Of a stretch of DNA of 64,000 nucleotides, positions 19,307-57,185 are shown piece after piece. Under the pieces are notes generated by a model. It was not told where the DNA came from. It made no database searches and saw only the letters and a list, made by a program, of their open reading frames with translations. The stretch covers positions 6,822,501-6,886,500 of the forward strand of contig OY987273.1 of NCBI GenBank assembly GCA_963920665.1, given 5' to 3'. Position 1 is the first letter of the stretch. Each line of letters opens with the position of its first letter. The DNA comes from Straminergon stramineum. Taxonomy: Eukaryota > Streptophyta > Bryopsida > Hypnales > Calliergonaceae. Both the position numbers and the translations under genes were made by a program.

Positions 19307-19311
19307 AAGGA
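19307..19311 (+). repeat. Target-site duplication AAGGA (left)
   Basis: AAGGA at 19307-19311 is repeated exactly at 22706-22710, immediately outside the element ends TATCGTAGCA (19312) and CGTCGTGACA (ending 22705). A 5-bp duplication is typical of retroviral-type integrases. Confidence 0.75.
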
Positions 19312-22300
19312 TATCGTAGCACAGGATAAGTAAATTCCCTATTATGCTCACAAAAATCACTCTAGAGCATAACGAAGTGACTCTAAAGATCGAACCCACG
19401 AGATTCTGTGAAGTATTTACTTAGTTTGGGCGAGTAAGCGCTTTCACCCTCTCAAACTTCCTTTCCGGTCCTAGATCTAAAACCGGAAACCAACAACCAC
19501 CTAGAGGATCTAGACCGGATTACTTCCCACCCGATTCAAAAATCCTCCGTTAAAACCAATTCTCTCAATCTCCAGGACCTAAACAATTCCGGTTCTGGTA
19601 CTACTCTGAACCAATCCACTCTGGCTGGTTCCTGTATCTTCCCAACACTCTTCCGGTTTAGTTTTGCCTCTGTTGGACCATCAGAGGGTTCGCCGCTTAG
19701 GTGCCTGAGTGGTAGGCCCACCACTCCTTTGCGGATTGTAGTGGTTGAAGACCCATTGTCCTCTCCCTTCCTTTCCTAACTAACTCGGATCCGGTTTGAT
19801 CCCTCACAGCAATCTGGACAGCAATCCGGAATGCAGGTCACACAGAGATCCCCCGTACGATCCGTTCTTACTACAACGACCTCAATGCTAGCTCCTACCC
19901 GTGCGAAGCTAGGTGGCTACAAGTGTTCTCGTCCGTTCCAACAGTACCTAGGATCATTCCGTTTACCAATCTATGGTGATGAGACCTCTCAGAAGATCAG
20001 ACACTCGACCGGGCTACCCGTCCAGGAGTTCTAGCGCGACTAAGGATACCCTCCCTATCCGCCTAGCCTAACAGCGGCTATCTCACCCGGAACTTCAAAA
20101 CCCTAGATCCTGCTGAGGCACTGAAATACACTCCCAACACTTACACAACCTGCACACACTAAGGATCAAAAACTATCGCACTAAGGGGAGAAATCTAACC
20201 ACAACTCTGCCTTGCACCTTCCTAACTTTACATCATGCAAACCTGCCAAGCTTGGGAGACACACACAACGAGAGAGTGCATATAAAGGTACAACAAAATT
20301 GCAAAAAGAAGACTCCTAGCGTCCCTCGCGGGCGCTAACTATATACATTTCAAAAAGTTACAAATGGGCGGGAAAACTCGCGAAAGTTCCGCCGCCATCT
20401 CGGTCAGACTTTCCAGTCCTACCTACTCCCCACTTGGACCGGAACAGGTTCCGTATCCGTTCCTACTCTACCTACTCTACACATCCTAAGTCCCTATCCG
20501 CGATCCGATGGTCGCGCTGTCCGCTCCCGGGTCCATTTGCTCAAAATCCTCGTTGAGGTTCCAACTCCTCTCGATCTCCTGAGGTCGAGGAATCGAATTG
20601 CCTTCTGTGGACGCGGGCGGTGAGTCCAAGTCGATGGCGGTCCCGGGCGTGCCGGCCTGGGTCGTTTTCTTGGACTTCAGGGTCGTATCCTTCCCCTCTC
20701 CAACTGTCACTTCCGGGAACGAATCCGGGAGGGAGATATCCGAGAGTCGGATACCGCGAGAGTAGGTTGCTCTCGACAGCATCCGAGTACTCTCCTCCAT
20801 CTGGTCCACTACCTTCCGTGCCTCCTGCATTGCCGCTTCTACCTGTTCGGCAAAGTTGTTGAGGATCCGCACCATCTGAGTACCGGATAGCTTCTTCTCC
20901 TCGTTCACCCACTCGTCAAATAATTTGGCTTTGGTGAGGGCCGTTCCGGTCTCCCCGAACGTGGCCTTCACTTGCTCCATCATCTGCTGAGCATCCTCTG
21001 CAATCGATTTGGTGGCGGCGAAGTTCTCCTGATGCACCAGGATCTCCGTCTTCATCCGATCCACCTCCTCCTATAGCCGGCGGATCTCTGCTTCCTACTT
21101 CCGGGACTCGACCGGATCAGAAATACAGGCCACCACCTTTTCCGGTAGCTCCTGGTTGGGTGCTGCTCCCACCATCCTCTCGATTGCTATCAGCATCTTC
21201 CTTTTCATCTCCCAATCCGCTCGTATATCGCATAAGTTCTTTACGAGCAATCTGAATGGATCATCGAGATCTGATTCTTCTGACACCGGCTTCTCGACCT
21301 CCGGCTTCTCCTCTGGGGCCAGGGTGTCGGGAGCGGGCGGCGTCCCCCTCTTGTTGGGAGAGGTCGTCTTCTGCCGTTTGATGACCGGCATTGGTGTTTC
21401 CTCTTCCTCCGACTCGCTATTCTCCTCGGGATCCGAACCGGATTCCATCTCCTCATCCGTTTCCGATTCTCCGTATTTCAGGAGAGTTTCTTGAGCCTTC
21501 CACCTCTTCTCCTCCGGTGCGCTCAGGAGATGTTGGGAATGGTAGAGGTGCATGAGATAGGGGCACACCGGAGTGGCCCTACTCTTCCCCACTCTTTCTA
21601 CAAGTTGGGTGACCAGCTCGGAAAGGATCCGAGCCCAGTCAACTTTCCGGTCTCCTCTTAGAGAGCCGAAAATAGTGTTGGCGAGGGAGATAGTCACCCT
21701 TGTCGGTTTTTCCGGATGAAGGACCGGAACTAAGAACTTCAGCAGTCGGCGCTGCCGCTCATCGATGCAGTCGTCCACCGCGTATTCGTCTTTCGGGTTC
21801 ACCGCTCCCCCAAACTTCCCACGGCAGAACTCATCCTTCCGGCTTGCCATTCCTAGCCCTCCTGCGCGGAAACTATAGGTTGTTCTCCACATGTCTTCCG
21901 TCCATAGATGTGGAACGGCTCGCGGAGTGTTGTCAAACTCATTGGACAGCTTGCCCAAGAGTTCTTTGACTATGGACTCTTCTTTCAAGCCCCAGGTTTA
22001 TCTACAAAACCCAAGCAGCCCATGGAATTCAAATCTTCCATGAGTTGGGACTTGGCTGGTTAGGTGGAGGGAACAACTGGAACTACCTTCCGGAGCTTTA
22101 CCTCCGCTGGGGGCACACTAGAACTGGCCTGTCCGCCTCTAGTCCTCTTAAGCTGCGGCATGGACACGGATTGGTGTGCTTGGGACCCTTTCCGATACTC
22201 CCTCGCTATCCTTCCTAGCCGCACGTCTCGTTCTCACTTTCGCTCCCCGATTTCAACCGGTAATTAAAGCTCGAACGTTCAAGGACCACAAGTCTCGCAA

Positions 22301-22705
22301 CGGACACTAATCACATAGGTCTCCCACAAAAGGCTCTCACGGAAAACTAGTTGACAGGCACAGAGGCAAACACAGAGCACAGACAGCGCTAGGCAAACGA
22401 GAATGAGAAAGAGTTTGACCTAGGTAGCTCTAGTTCTTTTAAAGCCATTGGACTCCCTGCCACCTCATCCTAACTCATTCCGGATCCGGTTCGTCTAAGG
22501 TATCTGGTCCATCCCTATCCGGTCAGATATCTGTTCGTACCCTTCCACTTCTTGGGATCTGGATTGAGCAAATCTTTTCACTATCTCATTTTCCGCTTCT
22601 TATTTAGATCTAGATGGTTCCTTAGCTAATTCCGGATACCTATATGTGTTTTCTGGTTAGCTTGACCTGGTAAACCAAAAAAATCTAAAACTGCACGTCG
22701 TGACA
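19312..22705 (-). mobile_element. LTR-like unit 1, solo LTR with internal ORF (3394 bp)
   Basis: Read on the minus strand the unit starts TGTCACGACGTGCAG and ends GTGCTACGATA (a TG...CA end with the last C changed to T). It is flanked by the exact 5-bp duplication AAGGA. No direct repeat of its ends is seen, and no reverse transcriptase, protease, integrase or primer site inside, as expected for a solo LTR. Most of it is taken up by a conserved reading frame (22161-20489). A TATA-like TTTAAAAG lies about 280 bp before the ORF and a TATATAG-type box about 150 bp after it, near 20338-20345. The second box could be the LTR's own promoter, placing the ORF in U3. This copy is GC-richer than its surroundings and represents a different subfamily from the units at 31523, 43613 and 53714. 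Confidence 0.75.
20489..22161 (-). pseudogene. LTR-borne acidic coiled-coil protein, copy 1 (decayed)
   Basis: About 557 codons from ATG 22161. The frame is interrupted by a TAA near 22065, a 1-bp frameshift near 21995, and two TAG stops between 21065 and 21095. Order of parts: basic/Ser start; MEDLNSMGCLGFVD; a conserved block LGMASRKDEFCRGKFGGAV; then TRVTISLANTIFGSLRGDRK, a helical segment and CPYLMHLYH (about 21560-21880). A long acidic Ser/Glu-rich region follows, then a C-terminal helical region with coiled-coil character and a Ser/Pro tail. No CCHC knuckle, protease or polymerase motif is present. The layout loosely recalls the plant 'putative transposon protein' domain found near retrotransposon gag genes. 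That is a resemblance only and the function is unknown. Confidence 0.6.
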
Positions 22706-22710
22706 AAGGA
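22706..22710 (+). repeat. Target-site duplication AAGGA (right)
   Basis: Exact partner of AAGGA at 19307-19311; it defines the right boundary of LTR-like unit 1. Confidence 0.75.
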
Positions 22711-24360
22711 CCTTAAAGCCAACACAAGTGGTCACCACTGTTAAGGCTACGAAGGGAACCATGCAACAAGTGCCCAAACCCAATCCCCCTACAAGAGGAG
22801 GGTAGCCCAAAAAAGGAGAAGCATCACGAAAGAAATGACCATTGAGGTGTGTTTTGATTCTCTCAAAAGCATGGATATGTGATTGGTAGGCCTTCAGTTG
22901 TTTGTTTGTCTGTTGTCACTAACGTCCAACGTTTGTTTGCAGGACTCCTCCTATCCATGGAGACTTTGCCTTCAACGCTCAAATGTTTGCTTAGATATAG
23001 AGGACGCTTCACACAACATTGTGAGAACTTCTTGGTGGCACTATTTCATGATTATCTAAACAGGTTTAGTGTCTATCATATTTTTTGTGGGGCATGTTGT
23101 GCTATATTGCCTTTTACAAAAGCTTTGTTCTCCTCATGGAGATTTGTTTTCCTTGCAACACTTTACCAGTATATGAATATGATATTTTTTGTTTGCCTAA
23201 AGGTTCCTCCATTCAGTGGTGCATGTATTTCAAGTATTGTGATTGTGCTAAGCTCTCTTGCTATGCAATGTCATTCATTGATATAGTGTAAAACCAACTT
23301 TGGTAAATACGTGCTATGCCAGAGCGTTGTTTAGGTCTCTTCAAATGTGGGCACAATGTCTAATGTTCAATGTCCTCACAATCATTGCAATGTTGCGCCA
23401 CATTGTTTTGATGTCTCAACGTGTGTCTACAAGCGCACATAGGAATGCACCATGTGGTTAGGTAGGACTTAATCCTAGACCCCTTCAATTCAGTGTCAAT
23501 GTCCGTGAAGTCTACAACATGTCTTCATTCATGTCTCACAGTGCACATTGCTATCACATCTAAGCTTGCCCTAAACGTGGAAGCATCAAAAGCTATGCAT
23601 GCATGTCATTAAACATAGCCCTATACACATCCTCAACATTGTCTACACAGACTTGTGCTTCTCAATTGCCTAACTCGTTAGTGTCATTTCAGACATCCCA
23701 TGCTCAAAACCAATCTTCAAGCACGTTGGTATGAAGCATGCACATGTTGTCTAAAATGATTTGTTACTTGTAAAAATGTTGTACATGTGAATGTTGACAT
23801 CCAACGCGCCACACGTCTAGTAGAAAATTGCATGAACATGTCCTTAACCATGTCGAATACTCCACTGTCAAAGCCTCAGACGACACAAACAGCGTTAGAA
23901 TCGTAGTGCTTACCAACAGTGCATGTTCCACATAAACATTGTCTTTAACATAGTTGTGTCTAGGACAACATTGTGTTAGACTTTGTGATGTCTGAAAAGA
24001 TATCTTTCATACGTATGTAGAAAGCTCTAGAAGAGGCTTCTCCATGCACCAAAATTATCCACGTCAGCATTCGAAGATGCCATGTCACCTAATGTTGACT
24101 CACCGGTCAATGTACACATCAGATGCCACATTACCAAAATTGGATGGATGAGAAAATTGCCAACCTAGCTGCCCATGCTCACGTGGCACAAATTTGTCGC
24201 CACATGGTAGAGTTCTGGCACCCGTTGACCAGTGTCTTTTTGGATGTCCGGTGCTTAGCATGCCCTTGTCCAGGCTTATTTTTGGATGTCCGCCCCCTGT
24301 CTTGGGCAACGTGATGTGATTAGACACCTACGTCAACATGCCTAATGTTGGATCTGACGT
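22711..24360. other. Sequence without a recognised gene
   Basis: A 135-codon open frame (22879-23286, hydrophobic, Cys-rich) overlaps another at 23085-23291. Neither has a recognisable domain. From 23330 to 24350 the words TGTCTA, ACATTGT and CACGTCA/TGACGT recur without a clear period. This may be a decayed LTR or other noncoding element. Confidence 0.35.
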
Positions 24361-24364
24361 CTGA

Positions 24365-26136
24365 GTGTCCAAATTTCGAAGTTGGGCAACTGCGTGTTTT
24401 CTTCCACTGATAGAAGACTTGAAGAGTAGTAAGCCTACTATGAGCTCTGTAAATATTCCATTTGTGCAAGAAAGTCAAGAGAGCAATCATCTCTCACTTC
24501 CTTTTGAGAAGGTGAAAGCAATGGAGACGTCCATCATCTTGAATAGAGATGAGGTTGGAGATGACAAGAAATGTGAAGAGCCAATACATCCCATCATCTA
24601 TAATGTTTCCCCTACATTGGAGGATGCTTCCACACAAACGAAAGGCACTGAGTTGGAACAGCTAAAGTTGAAATTGGATGAGGCAATTCAAAAGAAAATC
24701 CTTGTTGAGTTTGAGTTGGACTGATTTCAACAAATCATGGGCATGGAGGATTGCATGTTGAAGAGAGGATTGGAGTCTCAATGGTTGGCATGGGTAGAGA
24801 AACTCCAAGACAAACCATCTATAGTATTTCAAGCAATGAAAGGGCTTATGAAATTTGCAATGAAGTCGGATGAAGAATGCAATGCTATGGAGACCTCTTA
24901 AGAGAGGTTTAAGAAAGTGTTTGATGAACATCCAAGGGATTCCATTGAAATTACATGTTGGGAAGACATAGATGCCATGTTTGAGTAGTTGAACCACACA
25001 AAGAAGGACGATCTTCCACACATCAATTGGACCTTGGAAGTAGAAGAAGGGTGGATCCCTTATAACACCCTTTCATTGCACATCAAGGGGAAAGACAAGA
25101 CAGTAGTGCATGCTTGTGATCCAGCACCAAGAATCTTGAATAGTCATTGTAGCTTTTGCCAAGGTCCTTTTGGCCCTAAAGGAGCCCTAACCATGGGCCA
25201 GTGTTGCCACACTTTTCATGTGACATACATCGTGAAAGCATCATTTGTTCGTTCGGTTTGTGCGAAGTGTTGTTCTCCTTTGAGCCCTAGGTTCTATAAA
25301 ATGCTTGGCATCTTAGAAGATATGCCCCCCGGCCATGAATAAAATTGATGGACCCTTCTAGTTGACCAAGGGCCATATCACTTCTAAAATTTCTTGCATT
25401 GGAGGTGACCTCTCATATGGGATTCAATTGAACACTAACATGGATTGTATGAGGAGTTTGGGAAGCCAGTGGATCCCTTCATGTGGATGACTTTCAATAG
25501 AGATGTGGAGTTGTGGGCTTAGGGTATTGAAGATGGCGAGGCTCGCGAAGTGTTTTGTCACAATAGGGGGGGGGGCATTGGAGTGTGCAATACAAGAAAT
25601 TTTTTTGGTTTCCCACAAATGAAGTGTAGAAAGGGCCAAATAATAGTTGGGTAGAGGTGGAGTGTGCTCAAGAGTTTAATGAGCAATATGGGGCCTACAA
25701 TCACACTTTGATTGGTAGGGCCCTTCTCTCATCAAAGTTGGAAGAAGCTGCCTAAGTTCATGCTCTTGTTCATATAGATGGGGAAACTAGTATAGGGCAT
25801 TCATTTGTAGAGGTAGCTAGGGCATTTGATAAGAAGATAGTCGGCATCATAGTTCACTCGAGGGGGTTCCTATTGGACAATTTTTGACCAAGCTTTTTAC
25901 CCATCAAAGCTAATGACAAACATGTCAATATGATGATAGATCAAGTGGATGTTGCGTTGAGAGCCTTGAAGGTAGAGGAAGTAGATTTGCCTCCCAATCA
26001 AACCTTGAAATGGAAGAGGGAGGATGAGGATGAGGATGACCACTCTCTAGAAATCAAACGACGATTTTTAGCGGTTAACATGGAGGTTAGATCTAGTGGG
26101 CTTGTTGTTCGTAGTCCTAGGCAAAATATTTGGTGA
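24365..26136 (+). pseudogene. Decayed gene for a coiled-coil plus RING-like zinc-finger protein
   Basis: One frame runs 24365-25342 with three internal stops (TGA near 24721, TAA near 24898, TAG near 24987). It encodes an acidic helical N-terminus (QLKLKLDEAIQKKILVEFEL) and then a zinc-binding module (about 25147-25310): CSFCQGPFGPKG, QCCHTFH, then CAKC and a final RFYKMLGI. The spacing C-x2-C ... C-x2-H-x2-H ... C-x2-C resembles a RING or PHD-like finger. Further coding matter continues to 26136 after frameshifts: WMTFNRDVELWA near 25480, HALVHIDGETSIGHSFVEVA near 25770, and a charged tail KWKREDEDEDDHSLEIKRR. The first codon of the open frame is GTG, and the true start is unclear (ATG at 24439 is possible). 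RING proteins usually act as ubiquitin ligases, but no such role can be assigned here. It may be a transposon accessory gene. Confidence 0.55.
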
Positions 26137-26139
26137 ATG

Positions 26140-26900
26140 AGTGCAAGACTTATGGCTAAGGAGGGGCCATCTCACGATTTAGGAGAGGGTAGCAGTAGTT
26201 AAATGTAAGAGAGGCTTTATTTTTCCTATTATATCTTATAGTATAGAAGTATATAGAATGTTGTTTGGATGTTATAAAGGTTGAGTACTAATAATTCAAT
26301 GTATTCATTATATATTTTGATTTATTTTGAAATTTCAAATATATCGATATATAAATACATATATCTTTGAATTGACTATTGGTTTTTCTTTCTTTTTAAT
26401 TCATGCTATTATGAAGTAAATGTTTTCATGAAGTATATTTTCTTCATGCTCATCTTACAATTTTTAATTGTAAGACACTTTGACTAAACCGTTATTCTCT
26501 AAAATCCCATGATTCCATCTATAAATCCATATTTTTTTTCCACATTTCCTAAACATGCTCTACCTTGCTCATCTACTTGAAATCCTTCATCCGTCCATTT
26601 TCTCTTTCCGCTCGATTGTAGGTGTGCATGTTCGCCTGTTTGGCCCATTCTCCCCATCCACAATGTCATGCTCGTCCACTCGTTTGTAGAGACCGTGTTG
26701 TCTACCCCTAGTTGACCAAAATCGAATTGTGTGCCCATTTGGAGTGGACCAACCCACTAGGAATTCAAAGTTCTTCTCCAATGGTTAGGGCCTATTTTAG
26801 AAACTCTGAGGGCATCAAGTTGTAGGCTTCAAAGACAAAGTAGTCTAGTAGATGGCTTTGAATCAACCACAAAATGCAATTTGGATGCACTATGGGCCAT
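26140..26900. other. AT-rich noncoding spacer
   Basis: No supported gene. Overlapping reverse-strand frames at 26499-26781 have no recognisable features. Confidence 0.35.
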
Positions 26901-26919
26901 TTTTTTTTATGCGGTGAAC

Positions 26920-27870
26920 ATTTGTTGTAGCCCGAAATCCAACCTTCAAAGAAGCGATGAAAAGAATGGCCGAGTGTAATGGACCCTACATCCCACCATC
27001 ATATCATGATCTACGCTATAAATTGCTTAATGAAGCAAAGACCAACATCAAGAAAAAGCTTCATAACAAGACCAAAGATTATATTAGGAAGTTTGGAGCA
27101 ACATTGCCTATTGATGGATGGAGCTCAGTTACCAAACAACCATTGATAAATGCCATGCTTGTATCTTCTACAGGTGAGCAATTTCTTGGATGGGTAGATA
27201 CAAGTAGGGTCGAAAAGAATGAAGACTTTTTGGCCTCTATCATGGAAAATTTAATGAACAAGTGGGCCCTATGAATGTCATGCAAGTGATTGCAGACAAC
27301 ACTCTTGTGAACTCCGTAGCATGGAATATGGTGTCAAGTAAATATTTGCACATTTTCTTTCAAGGTTGTGTGGTGCACACCCTGAATTTGTTGCTCAAAG
27401 ATTGGAGGAAGCAAGAATGGATTAAGGAACAAGTTTAGAAAGTTGATACCATTGTGAAGTTTTTCAAGTTGTGGCATATGCCTCTAGCCTTATTTCAAAA
27501 GCACAAAATGAAGTATAGCTTGTTGATGCTAATGGAAACAAGATTTGCCTCAAATTTCATCATGATGAATCGTTTGTTGGAGGTTAAAGTTGTGTTGGAA
27601 CAAAGTGTGGTGGATCGACAATAGATGTAGTACGTGTTGAAATTATGGGACACCAAGAAAAAAAAATCTCATATAGAGTCTCAAGAGGTGAAGAAGACAA
27701 TTTTCAGTGAGCATTTTTGGGCCTAAGCCACCAATTTCCGAGAATTGATGGCTCCCGTGGTGTTTGGTCTCTATGATTTGGATGCCAAGATGCCATATAT
27801 GGGTAATTTCTGTCAACAATGGTGTCGGCAAAAAGCACCTCAAGGAAGATTTCTAAGAACCACCACGTAG
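26920..27870 (+). pseudogene. Decayed hAT transposase fragment (DUF659 region), second copy
   Basis: A partial hAT transposase different from the one at 984-3118. Readable parts: YIPPSYHDLRYKLLNEAK and FGATLPIDGWSSVTKQPLIN (26957-27150), FLGWVDTSR, then after a frameshift near 27255 GPMNVMQVIADNTLVNS, CVVHTLNLLLKDW (about 27365-27405), ALFQKHKMKY, TRFASNFIMMNRLLE, and a segment that fades after 27870. Stops occur near 27436, 27622 and 27724. The BED finger and the C-terminal dimerisation segment were not found. This copy is truncated at both ends or too decayed to read there. Confidence 0.8.
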
Positions 27871-27874
27871 CGCT

Positions 27875-31023: not shown

Positions 31024-31161
31024 CCGTTTGCAGAAGGTGTGAATCTTCTCCCTAAGAAATGGCTATACGAAATTTTGGCTAGAGCAGATTTTGCTAGACA
31101 TCGCATTGATGGAGTCTTAAGTGAGGAAATCCTTAGATTTTAGAGAGGTTTCGCTAGGTGG

Positions 31162-31493
31162 CACTAAAACAAAACATGGTAAAAAAAAACCGCACTCAAA
31201 AGTGGGTGCGATTTTTTTACCACGTTTTTGTGCAGGCCCACTACAAGTGCAGCCAATGTTTTTTGCAATTTCCCACTGCAATTTTGGGAATTTTGGGGCA
31301 TGTGATATACCATTGCAAAGGTGTTGAAAAGACCTTTCCAATGGTATATCACAAGCCCCAAAATTCCAAAAATTGCAGTGGGAAATTGCAAAAGAAGCTA
31401 ATAGCCCACTATGGGCACATGCCCAAAAATGTGGCAAAAAGAACTATAGTCGATTTTGACTATGGGTTTTTTTTACCATGTTTTGTTGTAGTG
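31162..31493. mobile_element. CACTA-type foldback MITE 1 (332 bp)
   Basis: The ends are CACTAAAACAAAACATGG and CCATGTTTTGTTGTAGTG, inverted repeats starting with CACTA. They are flanked by a 3-bp target duplication TGG (31159-31161 and 31494-31496), as for CACTA transposons. The whole interior is close to palindromic: GCAATTTCCCACTGCAATTT near 31264 pairs with AAATTGCAGTGGGAAATTGC near 31371. Transcripts would form a long hairpin. It has no coding capacity, and the open frames on both strands are reflections of the palindrome. Confidence 0.88.
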
Positions 31494-31923
31494 TGGATTT
31501 CTGATGGTACTTGTATATAGCCTGTCGCGAGGCATAAACTTGGAATCCACTAGGTTAGTATAAAATAGGTCTATAATAGTATAGAATTTTTTCAAAATTT
31601 CCAATAGGCAAACAAAATTAGAACCCTCTTAGCTTAAACATTGCATTAAGGCTAAGAGGATGATCCAAGTGTTTCGTAAAAGGATCCAGGACGGAACCAA
31701 ATTTCAGAAACCCGGATAGCGACGGCCTACGGCCTAGAGTTCTAGTCTAGGAATCTAGGGAGCCGTTACGGGTAAACGGTACACTTCAAGAATGGTCGAT
31801 AGGATGACAGGTACTTAATCCCACCACTCCCATTTCTCCTCCCTCTTTCTTCTACAATGGTTTTGCGCTCATATAGTTGAGTGAAAGACTAGTGAATTAG
31901 TGATTGTTTCAGCAATTCACCTA

Positions 31924-32255
31924 CACTATAACAAAACATGGTAAAAACAAACAGTAGTCAAAATCAACTATGGTTCTTTTTGCCATGTTTTTGTGCATGT
32001 GCTCATAGTGGGCTGTTAGCTTCTTTTTCATTTTCCCATTGGAATTTTTGGAATTTTGAGCCTTGCAGTATACCATTAGAAAGGTATTTTCAATACCTTT
32101 CCAATGGTATATTACATGCCCCCAAATTCCCAAAATTTCAGTGGGAAAATGCACAAAACATTGGTTGCGCACATAGTAGGCCTACACAAAAATGTGGCAA
32201 AAAGAACCGTAGTTGATTTTGACTATGGTTTTTTTTAACATGTTTTGTTATAGTG
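31924..32255. mobile_element. CACTA-type foldback MITE 2 (332 bp), nested in LTR-like unit 2
   Basis: The ends are CACTATAACAAAACATGG and the decayed AACATGTTTTGTTATAGTG. They are flanked by the 3-bp duplication CTA (31921-31923 and 32256-32258). It has the same length and family as MITE 1 but has diverged internally. It lies in the leader between the unit's putative promoter and the ATG of the ORF at 32272, so it inserted after the unit did. Almost fully palindromic (GAAAGGTATTTTCAATACCT is at the centre). Confidence 0.9.
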
Positions 32256-32271
32256 CTAGTTCCAGTTCTCA

Positions 32272-34266
32272 ATGGCAAAGGGAGATATTTGAAAACCCTT
32301 AGTTACTGCACAAATGGTTTGTTTGACCATTTCGGAAAGGCTGAGAGACTGGTCACAGTTAGAAGACGACCTAAGCACAATAGGGTGTATTGGTCTGTTT
32401 CTTAGGTCGTGGATTATAAAGAATGATCGGATGATTCAGGAGCTCGTCATAGGAGCTTCAAATCAATATGAGTTGATAGTGAGAGGGCGACCTAAAACCT
32501 AGACAGATGAGGTTTGGGCAAAGGTATACAGATTCCCTAGGAAGGGATTTGGATTAGCCTTCCGAACAGATAAGTTTGCGGTAGAGAAGCTCAGGAATGC
32601 AGCCCATTCTAAGGAAGGGTATGCCATTAGTAATTGTCTAGATGGGAGGCAAAAGCAGGTCTTAGAGTTTCTTACTCCGATCTTGTATCCAAAAAAGCCG
32701 ACCCGAGTTATGGTTATGGTAGCCAACACCATTTTTGGTGTAATGGAGGGTAGACTAGTCAACCGGGGGAAAGTCATTGGAGCAATAGTCTCCAAGCTTG
32801 CCACCAATGTAGAGAAGGCAAAGACCATCCCAATTGGTCCTTACCTGTTCCACCTCTACCACTATGTAGAACTTTTGAGTGATGTAGAAATAGTAGAGTA
32901 CAACACCGGATCCACAATCCTGCATTACGGCCTCACGAATGAGGTAGAGGCAGAGGCAGAGGAGCCGACATTTGAAGAAGAAGAAGAGCCAGAAAAGAAG
33001 GAGTAGCTCATAGATCGGAGACGAAGGAAATCTACCGATCCAACATCACACGGGAAACTCCCTATTCCGGAGAAGGTTCCGGAAAAGCCAAAGGAAGACA
33101 TTTCCGGATTCTTCAAAACTGGATTCGATTGGGTGTTGCAAGCATAGGAGTACCACAAGACCTTGGCAGACCTTCTCAAAAGGATCAGCAAGGAGTTGAA
33201 GGTCAAGCTAGACGATATACTCAACGCCATGTAGAAACTTCCGAATCTGTAAGAGCTAGAACGAAAGGAGAAGTAGATTGAGAATCTTGAGAAGGAGAAG
33301 ACTGACCTTCAAGCTAGGTTGGATTGGACGGAAGGAGAGTTAGCCACAACGAAGCAGAGGGAGAAGGAAGCTTTGTAGCTTATGAAGAACCTATCCGGTT
33401 TGGTGGATAGACCCGCGGAGCTTGTCGTCAAGGCCTCTCTCATCCAAAACCGACTAATAGAGGAAAGACATTTCACTGGATCCAAAGTAGTCTAGATCCT
33501 GGTCGACTTCTCATCGAGGATGGATTCCATATTGAAGGAGATGCGCCAACTGTTGGGGCGAATTGACTCGAACCATGTCATGGATTTTTCCCACTTTTCG
33601 GAAATCTACTTTGATACCGAAACTCTAGTGAAGTTAACGGCATCTCTGCCACTTCTGTCAAGACCGAAAGTTCCTAGGGAGACTCTTCGGCATTCAACAG
33701 AGCCCTTCTCAACTCAACTAGAGAAGATTGTCCAAGGGAGCGTGAAGACAGTTCGGGAGCCAATCAAGCAGGTAGACGCAGCACGAGAGTTGGTGCCATC
33801 GAAATTTACCATATCACCACCAATTCTGACAATTCGTCTTCCTGAGAAGGAAACCCTTTAGACACCCAGGCTACTTATCCGGAGTGACCTAGTAGATTGG
33901 ATTGGAGGACTAATGAATCTGGCTAGGACTCATCTGGAAAGCTTTAAGCACATGCAACAACCTCAACCAAGGCAAGAGAGGACCACCATTGTGTTGGATG
34001 AGACCTCTCCAGGAGAAAAAGACAAGAGAGTGGTCACTCAGATTGAGAAATCTAAAGAAGAGGAGTACCAAACTAGATCAGAGGAGGAAGAAGAGGAGGA
34101 CATGGAAGAGGAAGACTTGCCCCCCAAAATACAGAAGATCCAGACTTGGGCAACGTTGAGGACGACTCCGGTGAAGGCTACTCCAAAAGCAACTCCAAGA
34201 ACATCCATCCAGACACTAGCAAGTGAAGGCAAGAGCAGTCTAAAGAAGGCGCAAAAGACGAAGTAG
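32272..34266 (+). pseudogene. LTR-borne acidic coiled-coil protein, copy 2 (decayed)
   Basis: 665 codons from ATGGCAAAGGG to the TAG at 34264-34266. The frame is broken by about ten stops, the majority TAG. Conserved parts in order: LEDDLSTIGCIGLFL; RTDKFAVEKLRNAAHSKEGY; PTRVMVMVANTIFGVMEGR; PIGPYLFHLYHYVELLSDVE (to about 32890); an acidic segment; a long coiled coil (about 33250-33400, with LEKEKTDLQARLDWTEGELA); a Ser/Thr/Pro region; a second acidic block with EEEEEDMEEEDLPPK; and a Lys/Thr/Ser-rich tail. No Gag zinc knuckle or enzyme motif is present. The reading is supported by colinear similarity to the copy at 44040-46033. Confidence 0.65.
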
Positions 34267-35365
34267 TTAGAATTGCAATTAGTTAGGATTTGAATTTTGA
34301 ATTTGATTTGAGTTTCCAAGCGTGGGCCCAAGTTCCAGATTTTTAGGATTTGACTTTCCGGGTTTCTTGGGAGGTCTGTGATTGGTCACTTGGATTTCCG
34401 AGTGGCTTTTTGCCTTTGGGTTTTTGAGTTTTTAAGGGAGGGCAGGCTTATTGTCCTCTCATTCCATCCTAGTGCATATAGTTGTTATCTTGTCATCCTT
34501 TCTTTAATCTGAGCCACCAAGTGGACATTCATGAATTGATCTGTTGTATATCTAGCTTTCCTGTGTTTGTTTGTGAGAGCGTTGAAGTGTAAGAGAGAGG
34601 AGGAGGAAAGGAGGAATCTGGATCTGAGGTGACTAGATTTGATTTGGGAGGGAATGTTTGTGACATAGTTTAGGCTTGTGAATACGGTCTTGTGTGTGAT
34701 GCCTTTAAAACACTGGAATAGAAATTCGGCAAGGAGTGGTGTGAATGTGAGTTTGGCATACCAAGAAGGATTTTGTACGAAGGTAAGCAACCGCGAGCGG
34801 AAAAATCCCCATCCTACTCTCTAGAAGGTTTGCCAAACTCTAGGATCAGTCTAATGAATGACTAACAATCCTCCATCGGTTTCGGTTTTTGTTGATCTGT
34901 CGTTGTAGTGGAGAAGATTAGTAATGGCTCTAAGTGACCTGCCTTCCGGATTAGCCATCCAAGAAGTTGTGAGAGTGGTTCTTGGTCTGCTTTAGTGCAA
35001 CATTTGGTTTAAGTGTGTTTTGTGTAGTTTAGAAAGAAAAGAGAGTGTGAGGAATACGAGTGTTGAGTCCCTACCCCTCTACAAGATCAAAGGTGGACCC
35101 TTTCAGGGTAAAACAGAGGCACCAAATACCAATGTGTGTGTGAGAAGAGACAGATCCAAAATTCGAAAAGGAGCAGATCTAGATTGGATTCCGGAAAGGT
35201 AGTAATCCAAAAAAGAGAGAAAAGAAGTAAAGAGAGAGCTTAAGTTGGTAATATGGATAATCTCGGCTTGCAACAACAGTCTAGAATCCCCTAGGACAAC
35301 ATTTCGAGTCATTTTACGATGTTTTGGTGTTGTAATGGTACTTACGCTCCATTGCACGTATGACA

Positions 35366-43612: not shown

Positions 43613-44039
43613 TATCATGAGGTGTAAACTTGGAATCTACCAGGTTAGTATAAAATAGGTCTATAATAGTATAGAATTTTTTCAAAATTTCCAATAGGCA
43701 AACAAAATTAGAACCCTCTCAGCCTAAACATTGCATTAAGGCTAAGAGAATGATCCAAGTGTTTTGTAAAAGGATCCAGGACAGAACCAGATTCCGGAAA
43801 CCTGGATAGCAACAACCTATGGCCTAGAGTTCCAGTCTAGGAATCTAGGGAGCTGTTACGGGTAAACGGTACTGTTCAGGAATGGTCAATAGGATGACGA
43901 GTACTTAATCCTACCACTCCCATTTCTCCTCCTTCTTTCTTCTATAGTAGTTTTGCACTCATATAGTTGAGTGAAAGAATGGTGAGTTAGTGATTGTTTC
44001 AATGATTGAGGATTGTCTTTCTCCAACTTTTGATTTACA

Positions 44040-46033
44040 ATGGCGGAGGGAGATATCCGTAAACCATTAGTTATAGCACGGATGGTCCATCCGACCATTC
44101 CAGAAAGGCTGAGTGACCGGTCACAGTTAGAGAATGACCTGAGCACGATAGGGTGTGTCGGCCTGTTCCTTTGGCCATGGACCATGAAGAATGATCAGAT
44201 AATTCAGGAGCTCATCGTAGGAGCTCTGAATCAGTATGAGTTGACAGTGAAGGGCCAATCTGGAACCTGGACAGATGATGTTTGGGCTAACGTATACGGA
44301 TTCCCCAAGAAGGGATTTCGATTAGCTTCCCGAACGGATAAGTTCATAGTGGGGAAATTTAAGAATGCAGCCCATTCTAAGGAGGGGTATGCCATTAGTG
44401 ACTATCTAGATGGGAGGTAGAAGTAGGTCTTAGAGTTCCTTATTCCAATCTTGTATCCAGAAAACTCGACCCGGGTTACAATTACAGTAGCCAACACCAT
44501 TTTCGAAGCAATGGAGGGTAGACCAGTCAACTAGGGAAAGTCATCGGAGCAGTGGTCTCCAAGCTTACCGCCCATGTAGGAAAGGCTAAGACCATTCCAA
44601 TCAGTCCTTACTTGTTCCACCTCTACCACTATATAGAACTTCTGAGTGATGCAGAAATGGTAGAGTACAGCATCGGATCCACAATCCTACATTACGGCCT
44701 CACAGATGAAGTGGAGGCGGAGCAGTTGGCATTCGATGAAGCAGAAGAGTTGGAAGAGGAGCAGTTCATAGAGTAGAGACAAAGGAAATCCACCGATCCG
44801 ACTTCACGAGGGAAACTCCCTGCTCCGGAGAAGGTTCTGGAGAAGCCAGAGGAAGACATTTCCAAGTTCTTCAAGACCAGATTCGATTGGGTGCTATAGG
44901 CACAAGAGTATGATGAGACCTTGGCAGACCTTCTTAAAATGGTAAGCAAGGAATTGAAGATCGAGCTAGAGGATATATGCAACGTAGTGAAGAAACGTCC
45001 AAATTCGGAAGTACTGGGATGAAAGGAGAAACAAATTGAGAATCTGGAGAAGGAGAAGAATGACCTTCAGGCCAGGTTGAGTTGGACAGAAGGAGAGTTA
45101 GCCACAGCAAAGCAGAGGGAGAAGGAAGCTCTGTAGCTTGTCAAAAACCTATTCGGTTTGGTGGATAAACCTGCGAAACTCATCGTCAAAGCCTCCCTCA
45201 TCTAGAACTAGATAATCAAGGAAGGACATCTCACCAGATCCAAGGTAGTCTAGATCCTAGTCGACTTCTCATCACAAATGGATGTAGTATTGAAGGAGAT
45301 GCGCCAGTTCTTAGGGCGGATTGATTCGGACCAGGTCATGGAATTTTCCCACTTTCTGGAAATCCACTTTGAAAGGGAAACTCTGATGAAGTTAACAGCA
45401 TCCGTACCACTTTTGTCAAGACCGGAAGTTCCTAGGAAGACTCTCTAGCATTCAATAGAACCCTTCTCAAATCAACTAGAAAAGACCATCCGAGGGAGTA
45501 TGAAGATAGTTTGGGAGCCAACCAAGGAGTCGAACACAGTACAAGAGTTGGTGCCACCGAAAGTTACCGTCTTGCCACCAATTTTGATGATCTATCTTCC
45601 TGAGAAGGAAACTTTTCAAACACCCAGGTTGCTTATTCGAGGTGACTTGGTGGACTTGATTGGAGGATTGAAGAATCCGACCCGAACTAATGCAGAAAGC
45701 TTCAAGCACATGCAACAGCCTCAACCGATGTAGGAGAGGACCACCATTGTGTTGGATGAAACCTCTCTAGGAGAAAAAGAAGACGAGAGGGAGATCACTC
45801 AGATTGAGAAATCTAAAGAAAAAGAGTACTGAACCGGATCAGAAGAGGAAGATGAGGAGGAGGACATGGAAGAGGAAGACTCAAATCCAGAGATCCGGAA
45901 GATCCAAACTTGGGCAGCATTGAGGACGACTCCGGTGTAGGCAACTCCGATGTAGGTGACTCTGAGGGCATCCATCTAGGCACCATGAAGTCAAGGCAAA
46001 AGCAATCAGAAGAAGGCACGAAAGGCAAAGTAG
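44040..46033 (+). pseudogene. LTR-borne acidic coiled-coil protein, copy 4 (decayed)
   Basis: The ATGGCGGAGGGAGATATCC start aligns with copy 2. The frame is open for 127 codons (to 44420), with clear motifs LENDLSTIGCVGLFL, TWTDDVWANVYGFPKKGF and RTDKFIVGKFKNAAHSKEGY. One base is missing near 44533 relative to copy 2, and the rest reads in the next frame to the TAG at 46031-46033: ISPYLFHLYHYIELLSDAE, coiled coil near 45040-45100, LPPILMIYLPEKETFQTP, acidic block EEDEEEDMEEED. There are many TAG stops. Several sit where copy 2 has Gln codons (for example AGGTAGAAGTAGG here against AGGCAAAAGCAGG in copy 2). Confidence 0.65.
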
Positions 46034-47038
46034 TTAGGGTTGCAGTTAATATTTGAATTTTGAATCTGATCCGGGTTTCTAGAAGTACGCCCGGGTTTTG
46101 GATTTGTAGGATCTAACTTTCCGGGTTTTTTGAGAAGTCTGTGATTGGTCACCTAGATTTCCAAGTGGCTTTTTGGTTTTGGTTTTTTCATTTTTTAAGG
46201 GAGGGCAAGCTTGTTGCCATTTCATTCCATCCTAGCACTTATAGTTGGTATCTTATCATCCTTTCTTTAATCTCAGCCACCAAGTGGACATTCAGGAATT
46301 GATCTGTCATATATCCATCTTTTTTGCGTTTGTTTGTAAGAGTGTTGAAGTGTAAGAGAGAGGAAAGGAGGAATCCGGATCTGAGGTGACTAGATTTGAT
46401 TGGGAGGGAAAGTTTGTGACGTAGTTTAGACTTGTGAATACGATCTTGTGTGTAGTGCCTTTAAAACATTGGAACAGAAATCCAGCAAGGAGTGGCGTGG
46501 GTGCGAGTGTGGATTATCAAGGAGGGTTTTATGTAGAGATAAGCAACCGCAAGCAAAAAAATCCCCATTCTACTCTCCAAAAGGTTTGCCAAACCCTAGG
46601 ATCACTCTAGTGAATGACTAATAATCCCCCATTGGTTCCAGTTGTTGTCAGTCTATCCTTGTAAGTGGAAAGGACTTGTTATAGCTTTGAGTGACTTGCC
46701 TTCTAGATTGGCCATCCGAGAAGTTGTGAGAGTGTTCCTTAGTCTAGTCCAGTACAACATTTGGTCAAGTGTGTTTTGAGTAGTTAGAGAGAGAAGAGAG
46801 TGTGAGGAATATGAGTGGTGAGTCCCTGCCCCTCTACAAGACTAAAGGCAGACCCTCTAAGGGTGAAACAGAGGCACCAAAAACTAGTGTGTGTGTGAAA
46901 AGTAACGGATTTGAATTCCGAAAAGGAGAAGATCCGGAAGAGAGAAAGGAAGTGAAAAGAGTGCTTAAGTCGGTAATACGGATAATCTTGGCTTGTAGCA
47001 ACAATCTAGAATCCCTTGGAACGATATTTCAAGTCATT

Positions 47039-47060
47039 TTACGACATTTTGGTGTCGTAA
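47039..47060 (+). other. Perfect hairpin near the 3' end of LTR-like unit 4
   Basis: Arms TTACGACA and TGTCGTAA enclose the loop TTTTGG, 30 bp before the unit's end. The same position in units 2 (35314-35335) and 5 (near 53750) shows the decayed hairpin with the identical TTTTGG loop. Conservation of position suggests a structural element of the transcript or of the end. Confidence 0.6.
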
Positions 47061-47090
47061 GGGTACTTATGCTCCTTTGCGTGTACGACA

Positions 47091-50980: not shown

Positions 50981-50983
50981 TTG

Positions 50984-51073
50984 CCAATTTGAGGGGTAGC
51001 TCCAACGCTCCCTTAGACCCTAGTCGGATCCAACTGAGGTCAAAGGACTCTCTAATGCTACCCCTCAAATTGG
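50984..51073. repeat. Inverted repeat (hairpin) with 17-bp perfect arms
   Basis: CCAATTTGAGGGGTAGC at 50984-51000 is exactly complementary to GCTACCCCTCAAATTGG at 51057-51073. The 56-bp interior continues to pair imperfectly (CCCTTAGACCCTAG against CTGAGGTCAAAGG). A transcript would form a hairpin of about 90 nt. It could be a small foldback element or a small-RNA precursor. No flanking target duplication was confirmed. Confidence 0.75.
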
Positions 51074-53708
51074 GCCTTTGAAATTACAACACATTTTTTT
51101 TGCTAGCCAGTGACAACCGAGACACCAATAGCTGGACACCACGACCTCCTCATAGTGGGGACACGACCCACTCACAAGCTGTAACGCCCTACTCACACGC
51201 TCCTATCACGCACTTACACATAGAGTGAGATCACATTGAGTCAGTGAGACGAAGGAGCTCTAGCCTTGGATGGGTCATGCCTCAAGCGCAAAGGCACGCT
51301 ATGGCCTTTGGGACAAGATCCCAGCCACGACTAAAATTGAAGGGTGGCCCAAGCGCAAGACGATCTAATGTACAAATGCAAAGTTTGGATGATAGTTCAT
51401 GATTACTTGAGGGTTTGTGTTGGTAGGTAATTGGTGAGCTATGGATTCCAACTGTGCAGCTGGTCCTTCGTCGCGAGCCTTGCTTTGAATTCTCATCATC
51501 CTCACAGCTTCACTCCCTCATGATTCCTGAGACATGAAAACAATATGGTTGGAATTGGATATGCTTCGCAAGGCACAGTACAAGAATAGAATGGAAGAGC
51601 AAGAGAATTCATCAATTCCTAGGTGCGACACGAGAATGTTAGTGGCGGCAGAAACTAAGCACCTTAACTATCTCCTATGGGCTCCATCGGAGCTTCCTCG
51701 AAATTTGTGGTAGCTCAGGAAATTCTCCACTCCATTTCATGGAGAAGAGGCTTAGCGTGGAGATCCCCCAATGGCGTCAATATCCATACTTTCTAAATGT
51801 GAACGGATCGCCTTCAATCGTACTAGACTCAAAAAGTAGTAATTCTAAATTGATCTCAAGTAGTGCAAGGAGATTGGTAATAGGCACCTTAGGCCTCGTC
51901 TAATTTGAACCCCTGTTTGGCATTGTGAATATGTAGAGGATTAGTCACGGTAGCCTTTAATTCAATGTAGACGAGTATTTCATCTAAGAGGTTTACAAGG
52001 GTATCATCAATCAATTCTTGAACCTATTGAAAAATTTATACAACAAAATGATTTGGTTTCCTTAATGGAAACCCCAATTATAGATACAAGAGTGGAAAAT
52101 AAGATCTCTAGTAGTCAAATAATGATTCATTCAAATGTTTTGACTCCTAATCCCAAATTGTTTTTTCCTAGCAGTTTAGCTAACACATTGCATACCTACC
52201 TAAACCCAAAACTCGTAACTTCAATTTGAATGTAATTATTCTTCTACAGAAATGTAGACTAACAAAACTCTAAGATTTAAATTAATCATCCTATCTTCCT
52301 ATTTCAATGAGGAAACAATAGATTTTGACAACCAATAACGAAGAAGGACAAATTGAGATTTGTATTGCAACTACAAGGTGTTGCATTACAGTTTTCAAAA
52401 CATTCATGAATGCAAAGTATTTAGAGAAAGTGGATATGAAAGTATGATGTTTACGTCATTCATGTTAATGAGCTCTTCCCCACGTTGATGACAAGTACCA
52501 TTTGTGTCCTATGAAACCTCTTGCATTACATCCACATTTTCCACACCAACAACCTCTTCTGTAGTGCTCTTTTCTTCCTTGAAGCAAAGTACTTTGTGCA
52601 AATTTCCTATTGTTGATTGTCGTGTCTTGGACAATTCTCTCCTACCCTAGTCATTCTAGACCTTTTAAGTGACTTGGAAGATGAAAAATCTAGTGAACTA
52701 CACTTCTTTCTCTTTTTGGTCTGATTCAAAATGATAAACGCATCTCTACAATTCTCTAAGAGCATGAGGTGATGGAGGACCTAGTATAACCACTTACCCT
52801 CTACTACAAATGGATCTCCTCTCTAAAAAGATTGAAAAGACTTTGAAAACAGAGCAAGGCTAATACTTATCCACACCAGCTTCCAACACTACAAGTAATG
52901 TATAAGAGAAAGAACTTCATGACAAACACGAACATTGAATTCAACGGCATTGCCGTGTGTCACTTAATTTAATGCACTGCTCATTTTTGGAAGGCACAAT
53001 TCGAGGCGTTCATGAGACTATTACATCAGAAGGGCTAGAAGTCGCCAAATACACATGGTGGCATGCTTTATCACAATAACAACCATTGTGGGCATTCAAT
53101 GTCACAATGGGGTCATCTACCATATTTTCCATTATGCTATCTATTTTTAGAGTATGATCTTTGGATATCCCCATTCCCAAGATGCTCTCTTAATTGTGAA
53201 GCCTCCATGGTAGTAGAGAATCTACCATAACTCATGTTCTTGCGCAACTATTTGAATTGCACTTAGTCTAAACAGGACTAATAAAGGCACTTTTATGGCT
53301 TGAATTATATTGAAGAAGTAGTTCATTGAGGAGAACATCTATGGCAGCATAAATATTATTATTTGAAATGAAAGTTAATATTGAACTATTCACTAACATC
53401 TTGCCATCACCCTCTCCCAATCTCCTACAGCAAGTCATTCAAATAGAGATGTTACAATGTATCACCTAGTCCCTTTCCTTCAACCACCGTTAGGACCATC
53501 TCCTTCATTCCAAGTGCCCATTGTGAGTACACATTTGTAATGGCTTGCATTCGAGTTGACGGTTATGAAGTTCCCCTTTTCTTTCCACTACAGGAGGATG
53601 GACATGCTAGGATTACAAGTCACTTGCTCCATATTCGGTTCATGTTTGTAGAGTCTTCCATCTATGTCAAGGAAGAGAAGAAGTCGCAATTAGGTGAACT
53701 ACAAGAAC
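51074..53708. other. Sequence without recognised genes; one short ORF fragment
   Basis: 51110-51990 is less AT-rich and carries repeated CTCAC and CACGC words, possibly an LTR remnant. A 57-codon stretch at about 51535-51705 reads MKTIWLELDMLRKAQYKNRM and continues past a TAG, but no family is recognised. The rest to 53708 holds nothing I can support. Confidence 0.3.
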
Positions 53709-53713
53709 CTATC
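53709..53713 (+). repeat. Target-site duplication CTATC (left)
   Basis: CTATC at 53709-53713 is repeated exactly at 57181-57185, directly outside the ends of LTR-like unit 5. Confidence 0.75.
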
Positions 53714-56700
53714 TATCATATGCATTGTCTAGGCATAAGTACCCTTATAACACCAAAACATTGTAAAATGACATAAAATATCATCCCAAGGGATTCATGT
53801 ATGTTGTTATAGGCTAAGGTTATTTGGATTTCTTCCTTACTCACTCCGTCCAACTCCTTACTCTCTTTTCCTAAAAATTCTCTCTATTCAAAATTCAATC
53901 CAAATCTGGCCTCTCCCGAATTCTGGTTACATCTTCTCCAAAACATTGGTTTCCTATGCCTCTATTCTACCCTCAAAGGGTCTGCTTTTGATCTTGTGGA
54001 GGGGTAGGGACTTACCACTTGTATTCCTCACACTCCCTTCTCTCTCTAACTACATAGACTTCTATAACCATGTATTGTAATAGATTAGACATGGAACTAC
54101 CTTCACAACTTCCTGAATGGCCAATCTAGAAGGCAGGTTACTCAGGGCTGTTTCCAACCTCTTCCACTACAATGACAAATCAAAGACATCCAGAACTGAT
54201 AAGGGATTGTTTGTCATTTGCTAGGTTGATCCTATGGTTGGCAGACCTTTTGGATAAGTGGGGGGTTTTCCTACTAGCAGTCTCTTATCTATGCATGGAA
54301 TCACATTGGATTCTAGACCCACATCCACACCACTCTACACTAGATTATCATTCCCATCTTTTAAAAGCACCACGCACAAGTCTCATTCACAAGCCTAAAC
54401 TTTGTCGCAAACATTCCTTCTCAATCAGCTCTAGTCACCCAAGATCCAAATTCCTCCTTTCTCACTCCCTCTTACAACTCAACACTCATGTAAACACACA
54501 TGCCAAACTCTATGCATAAAATTGAAACTAGAATGTCTAGTTGGTGGCTCAAATTAAAGAGAGAGAACAAAATAAACAACTGAAAGTACTAGGATGGAAT
54601 GAAAGGAAAATAGGCCTACCTACCCCTTCAAACCAAAACCAAAAGGCAAAAAGCCACCCTAAAATCAGGGTGGCCACTCTATGACCTCCTGAAAAATCTG
54701 GAAAGTACAAGTAACCCCTAAAAATCCAAAACCCAGGCCCACGCTTGGAAACCCGGGCCAGAACTAAAAATTCAAATCTTAACTAATTGAAACCATCTAA
54801 CTACTTCATCTTCCTTGCCTTCTTCAAACTACTGCCACCTTGAGTCGTTGGTGCCCTGTTGGGTGCCTTCACCGGAGATATGTTAACGGTTGCTTGAGTC
54901 TGAATTTTGCACATCACTGGTGGCGAATCTTCCTCTTCTTTTGATTTCGTCTTTGTTTTGGTTTGATACTCCTCTTTGTTGGACTTCCCAATGATCTAGA
55001 CCTCCCCTTTTCCTTCTTCTTCTCCTTCTATTGGGGACATCTCATCCAACATGATTGTCATTTTCTCCTTCCTTGGTAGGGGCTACTGCATGTGTTCGAA
55101 GCTTTACGGATGGGTTCGGGCTAGATTCGTCATGGCTCCCATTCAATCAATCAGATCACTCCAAATTGATAATCTAGGTGTCTTAAAAGCATCCTTCACA
55201 ATTGGTCGGGTGGTCAGGACACTCAATAAAGTGGAAACCTTCGACAGTATCAGAACTATCTTCACGCTCGGCTCCCTTTTTGACTCAAGTACCATCTTTC
55301 CGCTTTCCTGTATGGCATTCCATACCTGACTTGAGAAAGGTTCCGGAGAGTGACAAAGGGCATCCCTTAGCCCTTTCAATCGTGGCTGTGGTGGAATTGA
55401 TGAATTCCGCTTAACTAGAGTTCTTGAAACAAAAGGGAGTTTCATAAACTGCGTGAAGTCCGTGACCCGATTTGGATCAACACGCCCCAACAATTATCAC
55501 ATCTCCTTCACCATTGTTTCCATCCGAGTTGAAAAGTCAACCAAGATCATGACTATCTTCAATCCAATTACATGCCCCTCTTGAATTAACCGGTCCTAGA
55601 AGAGGGCAACTTTATTGATGACTTCTACTGGTCTTGCCACCAAGCCGGAGAAGTTTTTGATGAGATGGGGAGCCTCCTTCTCCCTCTATTTCGATGTTGC
55701 AAGTTCTCCATCTGCCCAATTCACTTGGGATTGGAAGTTATCCCATTCCTTCTCTAGGTTCCGGATTTGCTCATCGTTCCGTCTCAACTCATCTAGATTC
55801 GACAATTGCTTCACTTTGTCCAAGACTCTTTCTAGTCTGACATTAAGCTCCTTAGCGATGTCGATCAAGAGCTCTGCTAAGTTGTCGTGGTATTCCTATG
55901 CCTGCAATACCCACTCAATTCTAATCTAGTAGAACATTGAAACTTTTTCCTTCAGCTTCTCCTGAACAAGCAGCTTTCCTTGTGAGGCCGGATTGGTGGA
56001 CTTTCTCTTCCTTTCCCTACGGTCAACCAGTTGCTCCTCCTCTTCCGACTGATCCATCTTGACTTCTCTTGTAAGACCATACTACAAGAGAGTGGCTCCA
56101 ATATTGTACTCGATCATTTCTTCACTACTCAAAACCTCTACTTGGTGGTAGAGATGGAACATATAAGGGCTAATGGGACTAAGCTTGGTCTTTCCAACAT
56201 GGTCAATGAGGGTGGATACTACGCCCATGATAAACTTCCCCCAATTCACCTGTCTACTTTCCATTGCCCCGAAAATGCTATTGGCCATTGTGACCCTAAC
56301 TCGGGTATACTTTTCTAGATATAGGATTGAAATGAGAAATTCTAACACCCATTTGTGCCTCTCATTCTTACAATCACTAATAGCATACCCCTCCTTTGCA
56401 TGGGCCAAACTTTTAAATTTTTCAGCCATATACTTATCTGCTTGGGAGGCTAATCTAGATCCATTCTTTTGGAATCCATAGACTTTAGCCCAAATATCCT
56501 CCATCCATGCTACAAGTTGACTCTGACCATCAGCTCGTATTAATTCGAAGCTCCTACGATGAGCTCTTGAATCATTTCGTCATTCAAAAGGGTCCATGGG
56601 CTTTGTATTAACCCGACACATCCTATGCACATCAGGTCTTCTTCTAACTGCTTTCGAATGTTCGAATCAATAGGGATGGTGAGAAAAACCATCTAGGTCG

Positions 56701-57180
56701 TGACTATATGCTTACAGCTACTACCTTTCGCCATTAAATACCATAACTAAATATGGATCTAGTGTAGACAAGCACATCTTCACTTTCCTCTTCTTGACGC
56801 AGTCACTAACTCACCACTCTTTCACTCAACTACACTAGCACAAATTTCTATGGAAGAAAGAGAAAGAAAATGGAGGTGGTGGGGGTTTAAGTACCTAACG
56901 TTCTACCGACCATTCTCGGTAGAAGACCATTGCCATAACGCTTCCCTAGATTCCTAGGTCGAAACTCTAGACTATAGGTTCTACCTATCTAGATTTCCGG
57001 ATTCTAGATTCGACTTTGGTCTAGTTATGGAACATCCGTTACTTCTTAATCACTTAAGATTCAAAATTCAAGCCTAGCTGACTCTAATTCCATTTGCCTA
57101 ACCAAAAAGATGAAAAATTTAACTCTATCCTAGTTCTATTCTATCCTAAGTCAATTCATTCCAAGTTCTGTATTCCCACA
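53714..57180 (-). mobile_element. LTR-like unit 5, solo LTR with internal ORF (3467 bp)
   Basis: Read on the minus strand it starts TGTGGGAATACAGAACTTGG at 57180 and ends ATGCATATGATA at 53714 (GACA decayed to GATA, as in unit 1). It is flanked by exact 5-bp duplications CTATC. The leader, ORF (56734-54801), Gly/Ser-poor 3' region and near-end hairpin remnant (TTTTGG loop) are colinear with units 2 and 4. No long terminal direct repeats and no reverse transcriptase, protease or integrase are present. With its defined ends and matched duplication, this copy and unit 1 are the firmest evidence that the whole 3.4-3.5 kb unit is one LTR. Confidence 0.78.
54801..56734 (-). pseudogene. LTR-borne acidic coiled-coil protein, copy 5 (decayed)
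   Basis: About 644 codons from ATGGCGAAAGG at 56734 to the TAG at 54801-54803, with several stops and frameshifts. Readable conserved blocks: EDLMCIGCVGL, MIQELIVGASN (near 56540-56640), then GSRLASQADKYMAEKFKSLA, YTRVRVTMANSIFGAMESR and ISPYMFHLYHQVEVLSSEE (56504-56082). A coiled-coil stretch reads LERVLDKVKQLSNLDELRR (55868-55686), followed by an FTQFMKLPF block (55493-55143) and an acidic/Lys-rich end. Function unknown. The most conserved block across all five copies is the ANTIFG to FHLYH region. Confidence 0.62.
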
Positions 57181-57185
57181 CTATC
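57181..57185 (+). repeat. Target-site duplication CTATC (right)
   Basis: Exact partner of CTATC at 53709-53713. Confidence 0.75.

Follow-up and report, generated by a model that had tools for sequence, protein, structure and literature searches.

Candidate solo long terminal repeats that enclose a conserved gene in the moss Straminergon stramineum

What leaves behind DNA units of about 3.4-3.5 kb that look like the long terminal repeats (LTRs) of a retrotransposon, stand alone and each enclose a gene? The question is raised by a stretch of 64,000 nucleotides from the moss Straminergon stramineum (contig OY987273.1, positions 6,822,501 to 6,886,500; hereafter the window), which holds four such units, A to D. 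They are read here as solo LTRs from a retrotransposon that encodes a conserved protein in its LTR and whose complete elements have been lost or are very rare, with a probability of roughly 0.55. Units A and B had been described in the original prediction, which proposed the solo-LTR reading; units C and D were absent from it and were found by self-comparison of the window.

19312..22705, minus strand: unit A, 3394 bp, LTR-like, TGTCACGACG...CGATA
19307..19311: AAGGA, 5-bp duplication left of unit A
22706..22710: AAGGA, 5-bp duplication right of unit A
53714..57180, minus strand: unit B, 3467 bp, LTR-like
53709..53713: CTATC, 5-bp duplication left of unit B
57181..57185: CTATC, 5-bp duplication right of unit B
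31523..35365, plus strand: unit C, LTR-like, ends set from the D-type family ends
43613..47090, plus strand: unit D, LTR-like, delimited by self-comparison and genome copies

The TG starts and GATA ends of units A and B (minus strand) and the exact duplications AAGGA and CTATC were confirmed. On the minus strand the termini are TGTCACGACG...CTACGATA in A and TGTGGGAATA...CATATGATA in B, and both units terminate in TA, not CA (TG...TA). The described lack of terminal direct repeats also held, as self-comparisons revealed no direct repeat within A or B (20 of 24 repeat families listed). Their assignment to one family held in part: the two are homologous through the encoded protein, but give no DNA alignment at E 1e-3. 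Indeed, unit A resembles B, C and D at the protein level alone. Units C and D share 65-67% identity with B (73% in one 186-bp piece) and are closer to each other, with 91% identity over the first 383 bp (31529-31911 and 43619-44001) and 80% over 3.1 kb. The 91% likeness of their starts is perhaps due to gene conversion. The flanks of C (TAGCC/TAGTT) differ by two mismatches, and those of D (CCTAG/AAGAT) do not match.

Unit C is split at about 31912-32269 by an insertion of ~0.36 kb that resembles a miniature inverted-repeat transposable element (MITE). Two MITE-like repeats of ~334 bp (31161-31494 and 31923-32256) lie in opposite orientation and are 84% identical; each is self-complementary over most of its length. 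The second is the one that interrupts unit C, just upstream of its gene.

The window sits in contig C11 of a genome of 326 Mb in 59 contigs, which was searched with three queries and proved to contain a large family of units. Unit A gave 40 matches from 753 first-look candidates (35 scored), unit D gave 43 from 1337 (40 scored) and the homologous protein P0001 gave 72 scored matches of 2577. These are the best-scoring matches, not a random sample, and a small share of the candidates was scored. Partial matches were dropped before counting (5 of 40 for A; 7 of 43 for D, both pieces of C among them). Near full-length matches then numbered 35 for A, itself included, with the 34 others at 90-95% identity to it, and 36 for D, itself included; the 72 P0001 matches showed 82-87% identity. 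The fetched A copies show 91.5-95.8% identity.

The 5-bp duplication proved to be a property of the family. In the 20 fetched A copies (of 34 others) it was exact in 16 and carried one mismatch in three (L012, L018 and L026); only L023 had none. The chance of 16 exact duplications is ~3e-45, taking 1/1024 per match. Among 20 of the 35 other D-type copies it was exact in three and had one mismatch in six, the small number of exact cases being expected of an older group, and both P0001-type copies examined (2/2) had an exact duplication. Termini of the TG...CA type occur among genome copies of the A-type and D-type. A pattern of 29 bases taken from the A end, with at most three mismatches, was found at 204 genome sites, and its reversed control at none.

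The insertions could also be undone in part. When the flanks were rejoined minus one duplication, an uninterrupted target that is a relative of known units was obtained at three of six loci, namely an A-type unit at L013 and L014 and a D-type unit at L022. At L015 and L026 the match covered one side of the joint only, and at L024 there was none. The target of L027 is present unoccupied in the flank of L026, its halves overlapping by 5 bases. Among the matches listed, flank comparison revealed no common-register sequence extending past the unit ends; within that scope, the possibility raised with the original prediction, that these ends lie inside a longer conserved element, was not borne out.

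Contig C11 (17.4 Mb, 5.4% of the genome) holds 7 of the 35 A, 20 of the 36 D and 11 of the 72 P0001 matches. The A and D counts are biased because both queries derive from C11, while the P0001 count is free of that bias. C11 is possibly a repeat-rich sex chromosome.

All four units enclose a gene, and all four window copies of it are broken.

20486..22161, minus strand: broken gene of unit A, start region MPQLKRTRGG, ends SRIGT-stop, frameshift near 22000 and internal stops
54801..56734, minus strand: broken gene of unit B, ends KKARKMK-stop, start placed by analogy with D
32272..34266, plus strand: broken gene of unit C, single reading frame with stops, mostly TAG
44040..46033, plus strand: broken gene of unit D, ATG at 44040, frameshift near 44530, ends KKARKAK-stop

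In unit A a 297-aa open stretch is part of a longer frame that stops and a single frameshift disrupt, and the genes of B, C and D all hold stops. The conserved open reading frame of 560-645 codons that had been described is thus conserved at the protein level, but is interrupted in every copy of the window. Two of the 72 P0001 frames are free of stops, and most stops in the remainder are TAG. This TAG excess in decayed genes would fit C-to-T decay at CAG/CTG sites (CHG methylation).

Conservation was assessed by a codon-phase test on the alignment of A and its 20 copies (n=21). Variants present in at least two copies are distributed 94/80/161 over codon positions 1/2/3 (p 5e-8), while outside the frame they are evenly spread (upstream p 0.69, downstream p 0.60). 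The bias is present in each half of the gene, and variants in at least four copies fall 18/18/44. The ratio of nonsynonymous to synonymous changes is 0.67 for variants in at least four copies (2.67 and 2.75 in the wrong frames), 1.01 for those in two or three copies (2.10 and 2.69) and 1.44 for single-copy variants (2.38 and 2.60). Between subfamilies, the differences by codon position are 215/147/305 for C versus B and 101/60/122 for C versus D. The codon-phase pattern is read as selection in a spreading lineage, followed by decay. A conserved gene with a codon-phase signal lies wholly inside an LTR-like unit, in keeping with the analogy originally drawn to the sag gene of mouse mammary tumour virus (MMTV).

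In the encoded protein, of ~560-665 aa, a conserved N-terminal domain made up of helices is accompanied by a long coiled coil and a tail rich in charged residues. A search of a database of 5.8 billion proteins (7999 candidates scored) yielded 47 homologues, several of them uninterrupted and about 500-744 aa long. A wider profile added seven more, and none was confirmed in viral or prokaryote contigs. In the model of homologue P0003, residues ~52-260 form a helical domain predicted with confidence, and there are long helices at 324-475. Modelled alone, the N-terminal domain of unit C reached a mean predicted local distance difference test score (pLDDT) of 87.9. With neither model did Foldseek find a PDB match at E <= 0.001, and Pfam gave nothing above cut-off for the window genes. 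From its layout, one may guess at a Gag-like or accessory role.

By their TGTC...GACA ends and 5-bp duplications, the units are taken by us to be Ty3/gypsy-like. Such ends, such a duplication length and lone occurrence are typical of solo LTRs, and frequent recombination is to be expected of long LTRs. Complete elements would have carried the unit twice around gag-pol, and recombination between their long LTRs may have removed the internal regions, until complete elements had vanished or become very rare. The protein, encoded in the upstream part of the 3.4-3.5 kb LTR, would serve the element. In PMC7251063, Physcomitrella patens is placed among the genomes with a high solo-to-full-length ratio, and a correlation of this ratio with LTR length is cited.

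Several observations weigh against the solo-LTR reading, above all the lack of a two-unit element in the 143 near full-length matches of three subfamilies. With 0 of 143 paired, the 95% upper bound is ~2%, for best-scoring rather than random matches. Same-strand pairs 4-25 kb apart were absent from the 35 A and 36 D matches. That copies 91.5-95.8% alike should include no two-unit element is remarkable. Single-copy variants are also unevenly spread over codon positions (96/87/135, p 0.002), with a weaker bias, and part of the codon-phase bias may therefore be base composition rather than selection.

Some candidate pairs did appear. The sole same-strand pair within 25 kb among the 72 P0001 matches (contig C7, 0.28 Mb, 8.4 kb apart) was rejected, its members having separate exact duplications, ATAAG and GTTGG. 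For the A-type, 125 distinct 3' ends were compiled from the 35 matches and 99 of the 100 sites listed of the 204; the one left out has an end reading GACC. Within 25 kb these ends form three same-strand and eight opposite-strand pairs. In the pair on contig C6 at 5.43 Mb (10.8 kb), one partner matches A over just 756 bp (79.8%) within other unit-like sequence, and this candidate was dropped; the other partner is 96% identical to A over the 156 bp seen. The pair on contig C9 at 14.57/14.60 Mb (24.8 kb) was discarded, as its second unit is flanked by a separate duplication, TCTCC, although no start of the first unit could be located within the 151 bp retrieved. The pair on contig C2 at 45.49 Mb is 2.1 kb apart, under one unit length. 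Among the partial matches, C1:11119633-11122671 (79% to A) abuts the full match C1:11122672-11126068 (92%) on the same strand, and the D-type C10:19264033-19265426 lies beside a full one, also on the same strand.

The window itself holds a same-strand pair, as units C and D lie 12 kb apart, a spacing like that of an LTR pair; it stands outside the genome pair counts because C surfaced as partial matches. Here, too, the evidence runs against a complete element. No common 5-bp duplication brackets the pair, no primer site was seen by eye and no Pfam domain was found between the units (six frames, X at stops). Moreover, D is 83% identical to its best other genome copy over nearly the full length and 80% identical to the main part of C. 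It is therefore unlikely that C and D are the LTRs of one element, and they are judged to be two separate insertions.

The junctions expected at a primer site give a similar picture. TGG directly follows the A end at 4 of the 100 sites listed of 204, where ~3 in 204 are expected by chance and the search pattern itself favours TGG. A pattern of CGACA, 0-4 bases and the initiator-Met primer site without mismatches, which covers CGACA-ending units alone, was found at 41 genome sites of identical text with the spacer CT (reversed control 0). Ordinary LTR-primer junctions are thus detectable in this genome by the same means. The four fetched (L093-L096) are identical over 121 bases, and their LTR end is unlike that of the units. 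The 121-base identity suggests recent activity of this other LTR family (end CGACA). For L023, the A copy without a duplication, three-frame translations of the flanks (coding strand of the unit) matched no Pfam family.

Integrases are present elsewhere in the genome. With PF00665, 150 matches were scored out of 625 candidates, and many of them occupy one continuous open frame of 1343-1370 codons. On several contigs they cluster at one place (C1 44.61-44.73, C2 44.86-44.96, C10 18.46-18.55 and C11 10.78-10.83 Mb, among others), a pattern that resembles the centromeric copia clusters of a moss.

Taken together, the retroviral-type ends, the lone insertions with 5-bp duplications and the conserved gene of the solo-LTR proposal stand, but LTR identity itself is not established. 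Single units with no internal region, the pattern that had been named as fatal to it, are what the scored sample contains. The reading is weakened and not refuted, because 35, 40 and 72 matches were scored of 753, 1337 and 2577 candidates.

The rival that survives best, tentative as it is, holds that the 3.4-kb unit is itself mobile, a single-gene transposon with retroviral-type ends that is moved by its own protein and/or by integrase supplied in trans from a resident LTR retrotransposon. It would explain the 143 unpaired matches, the fixed ends with their duplications and the selection signal on the gene. It also agrees with the two stop-free frames among the 72 scored, from which it follows that not every member has to be old. 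However, the inverted likeness of the ends extends over ~4 bp only (TGTC/GACA). No long terminal inverted repeat was seen in the units, nor was a transposase or integrase domain found by Pfam, where further searches gave weak matches, or a fold by Foldseek; a transposase source with terminal inverted repeats, raised as a possibility at the outset, was not encountered in these searches. Furthermore, we know of no mechanism that directly produces lone LTR-like insertions, and the copies have been sampled in part. In its wider form, in which the unit would be a whole mobile element of an as yet undescribed kind, spreading in lone copies that lack two LTRs and encoding a helical-domain protein that matched no solved fold in the Foldseek search, the proposal is doubtful.

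It is improbable that the units are solo LTRs left by a retrotransposon that died out long ago and had taken a host-type gene into its LTR, where it was kept for reasons other than transposition. The selection signal and the lack of a known domain would agree with this, but stops in 70 of the 72 scored frames are ill-suited to a host function, and no copy was seen outside a unit, most of the 72 matches being unchecked for unit ends. Very improbable is a non-autonomous two-LTR element whose internal region is short or encodes nothing, of the large retrotransposon derivative (LARD) or terminal-repeat retrotransposon in miniature (TRIM) type. The LTR-like ends and the lack of pol between C and D would suit it, yet it predicts close same-orientation pairs, none of which was found among the matches listed, and an individual duplication, exact or with a single mismatch, surrounds 19 of 20 A copies. 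It is hardly credible that the units are ordinary repeats in which a frame is open by chance: the window copies are broken, but the codon-phase result, the conservation of the protein where DNA similarity is lost and the uninterrupted homologues in other data all speak against this.

Apart from the units, the window contains a direct repeat of ~790 bp (12113-12892 and 62802-63586, 82% identical), a 267-aa open reading frame at 1271-2074 on the plus strand (the second longest of three listed of at least 200 aa) and short degenerate tandem repeats at 61765-61980, 16938-17124 and 5154-5313.

If the units are LTRs, the LTR gene would be doubled in each complete element and would survive LTR-LTR recombination, and many solo copies could keep expressing the element's protein. 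If they are not, they would represent a new class of element, one whose insertion imitates retroviral integration. The literature searched, outside which most subscription papers fall, offered no plant LTR with a conserved gene, and none is described in the accessible parts of PMC3726317, PMC9122828, PMC7251063 and PMC7466625.

The solo LTRs of plant Ty3/gypsy elements are alike in their TG...CA ends, 5-bp duplication and lone occurrence, whereas the units here enclose a gene with a selection signal and no complete element was found. LARD and TRIM elements likewise have LTRs without pol, but keep two of them where single units are found here. Ginger-type DNA transposons combine a gypsy-like integrase with TGTNR ends. 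They share the TGTC ends and the short target duplication, but in the units here no integrase and no long terminal inverted repeat was found. The sag gene of MMTV lies in the U3 region of the LTR and resides in two-LTR proviruses, none of which was found here. Likened by description and not by sequence, it shares with the moss units a conserved gene within an LTR-like unit.

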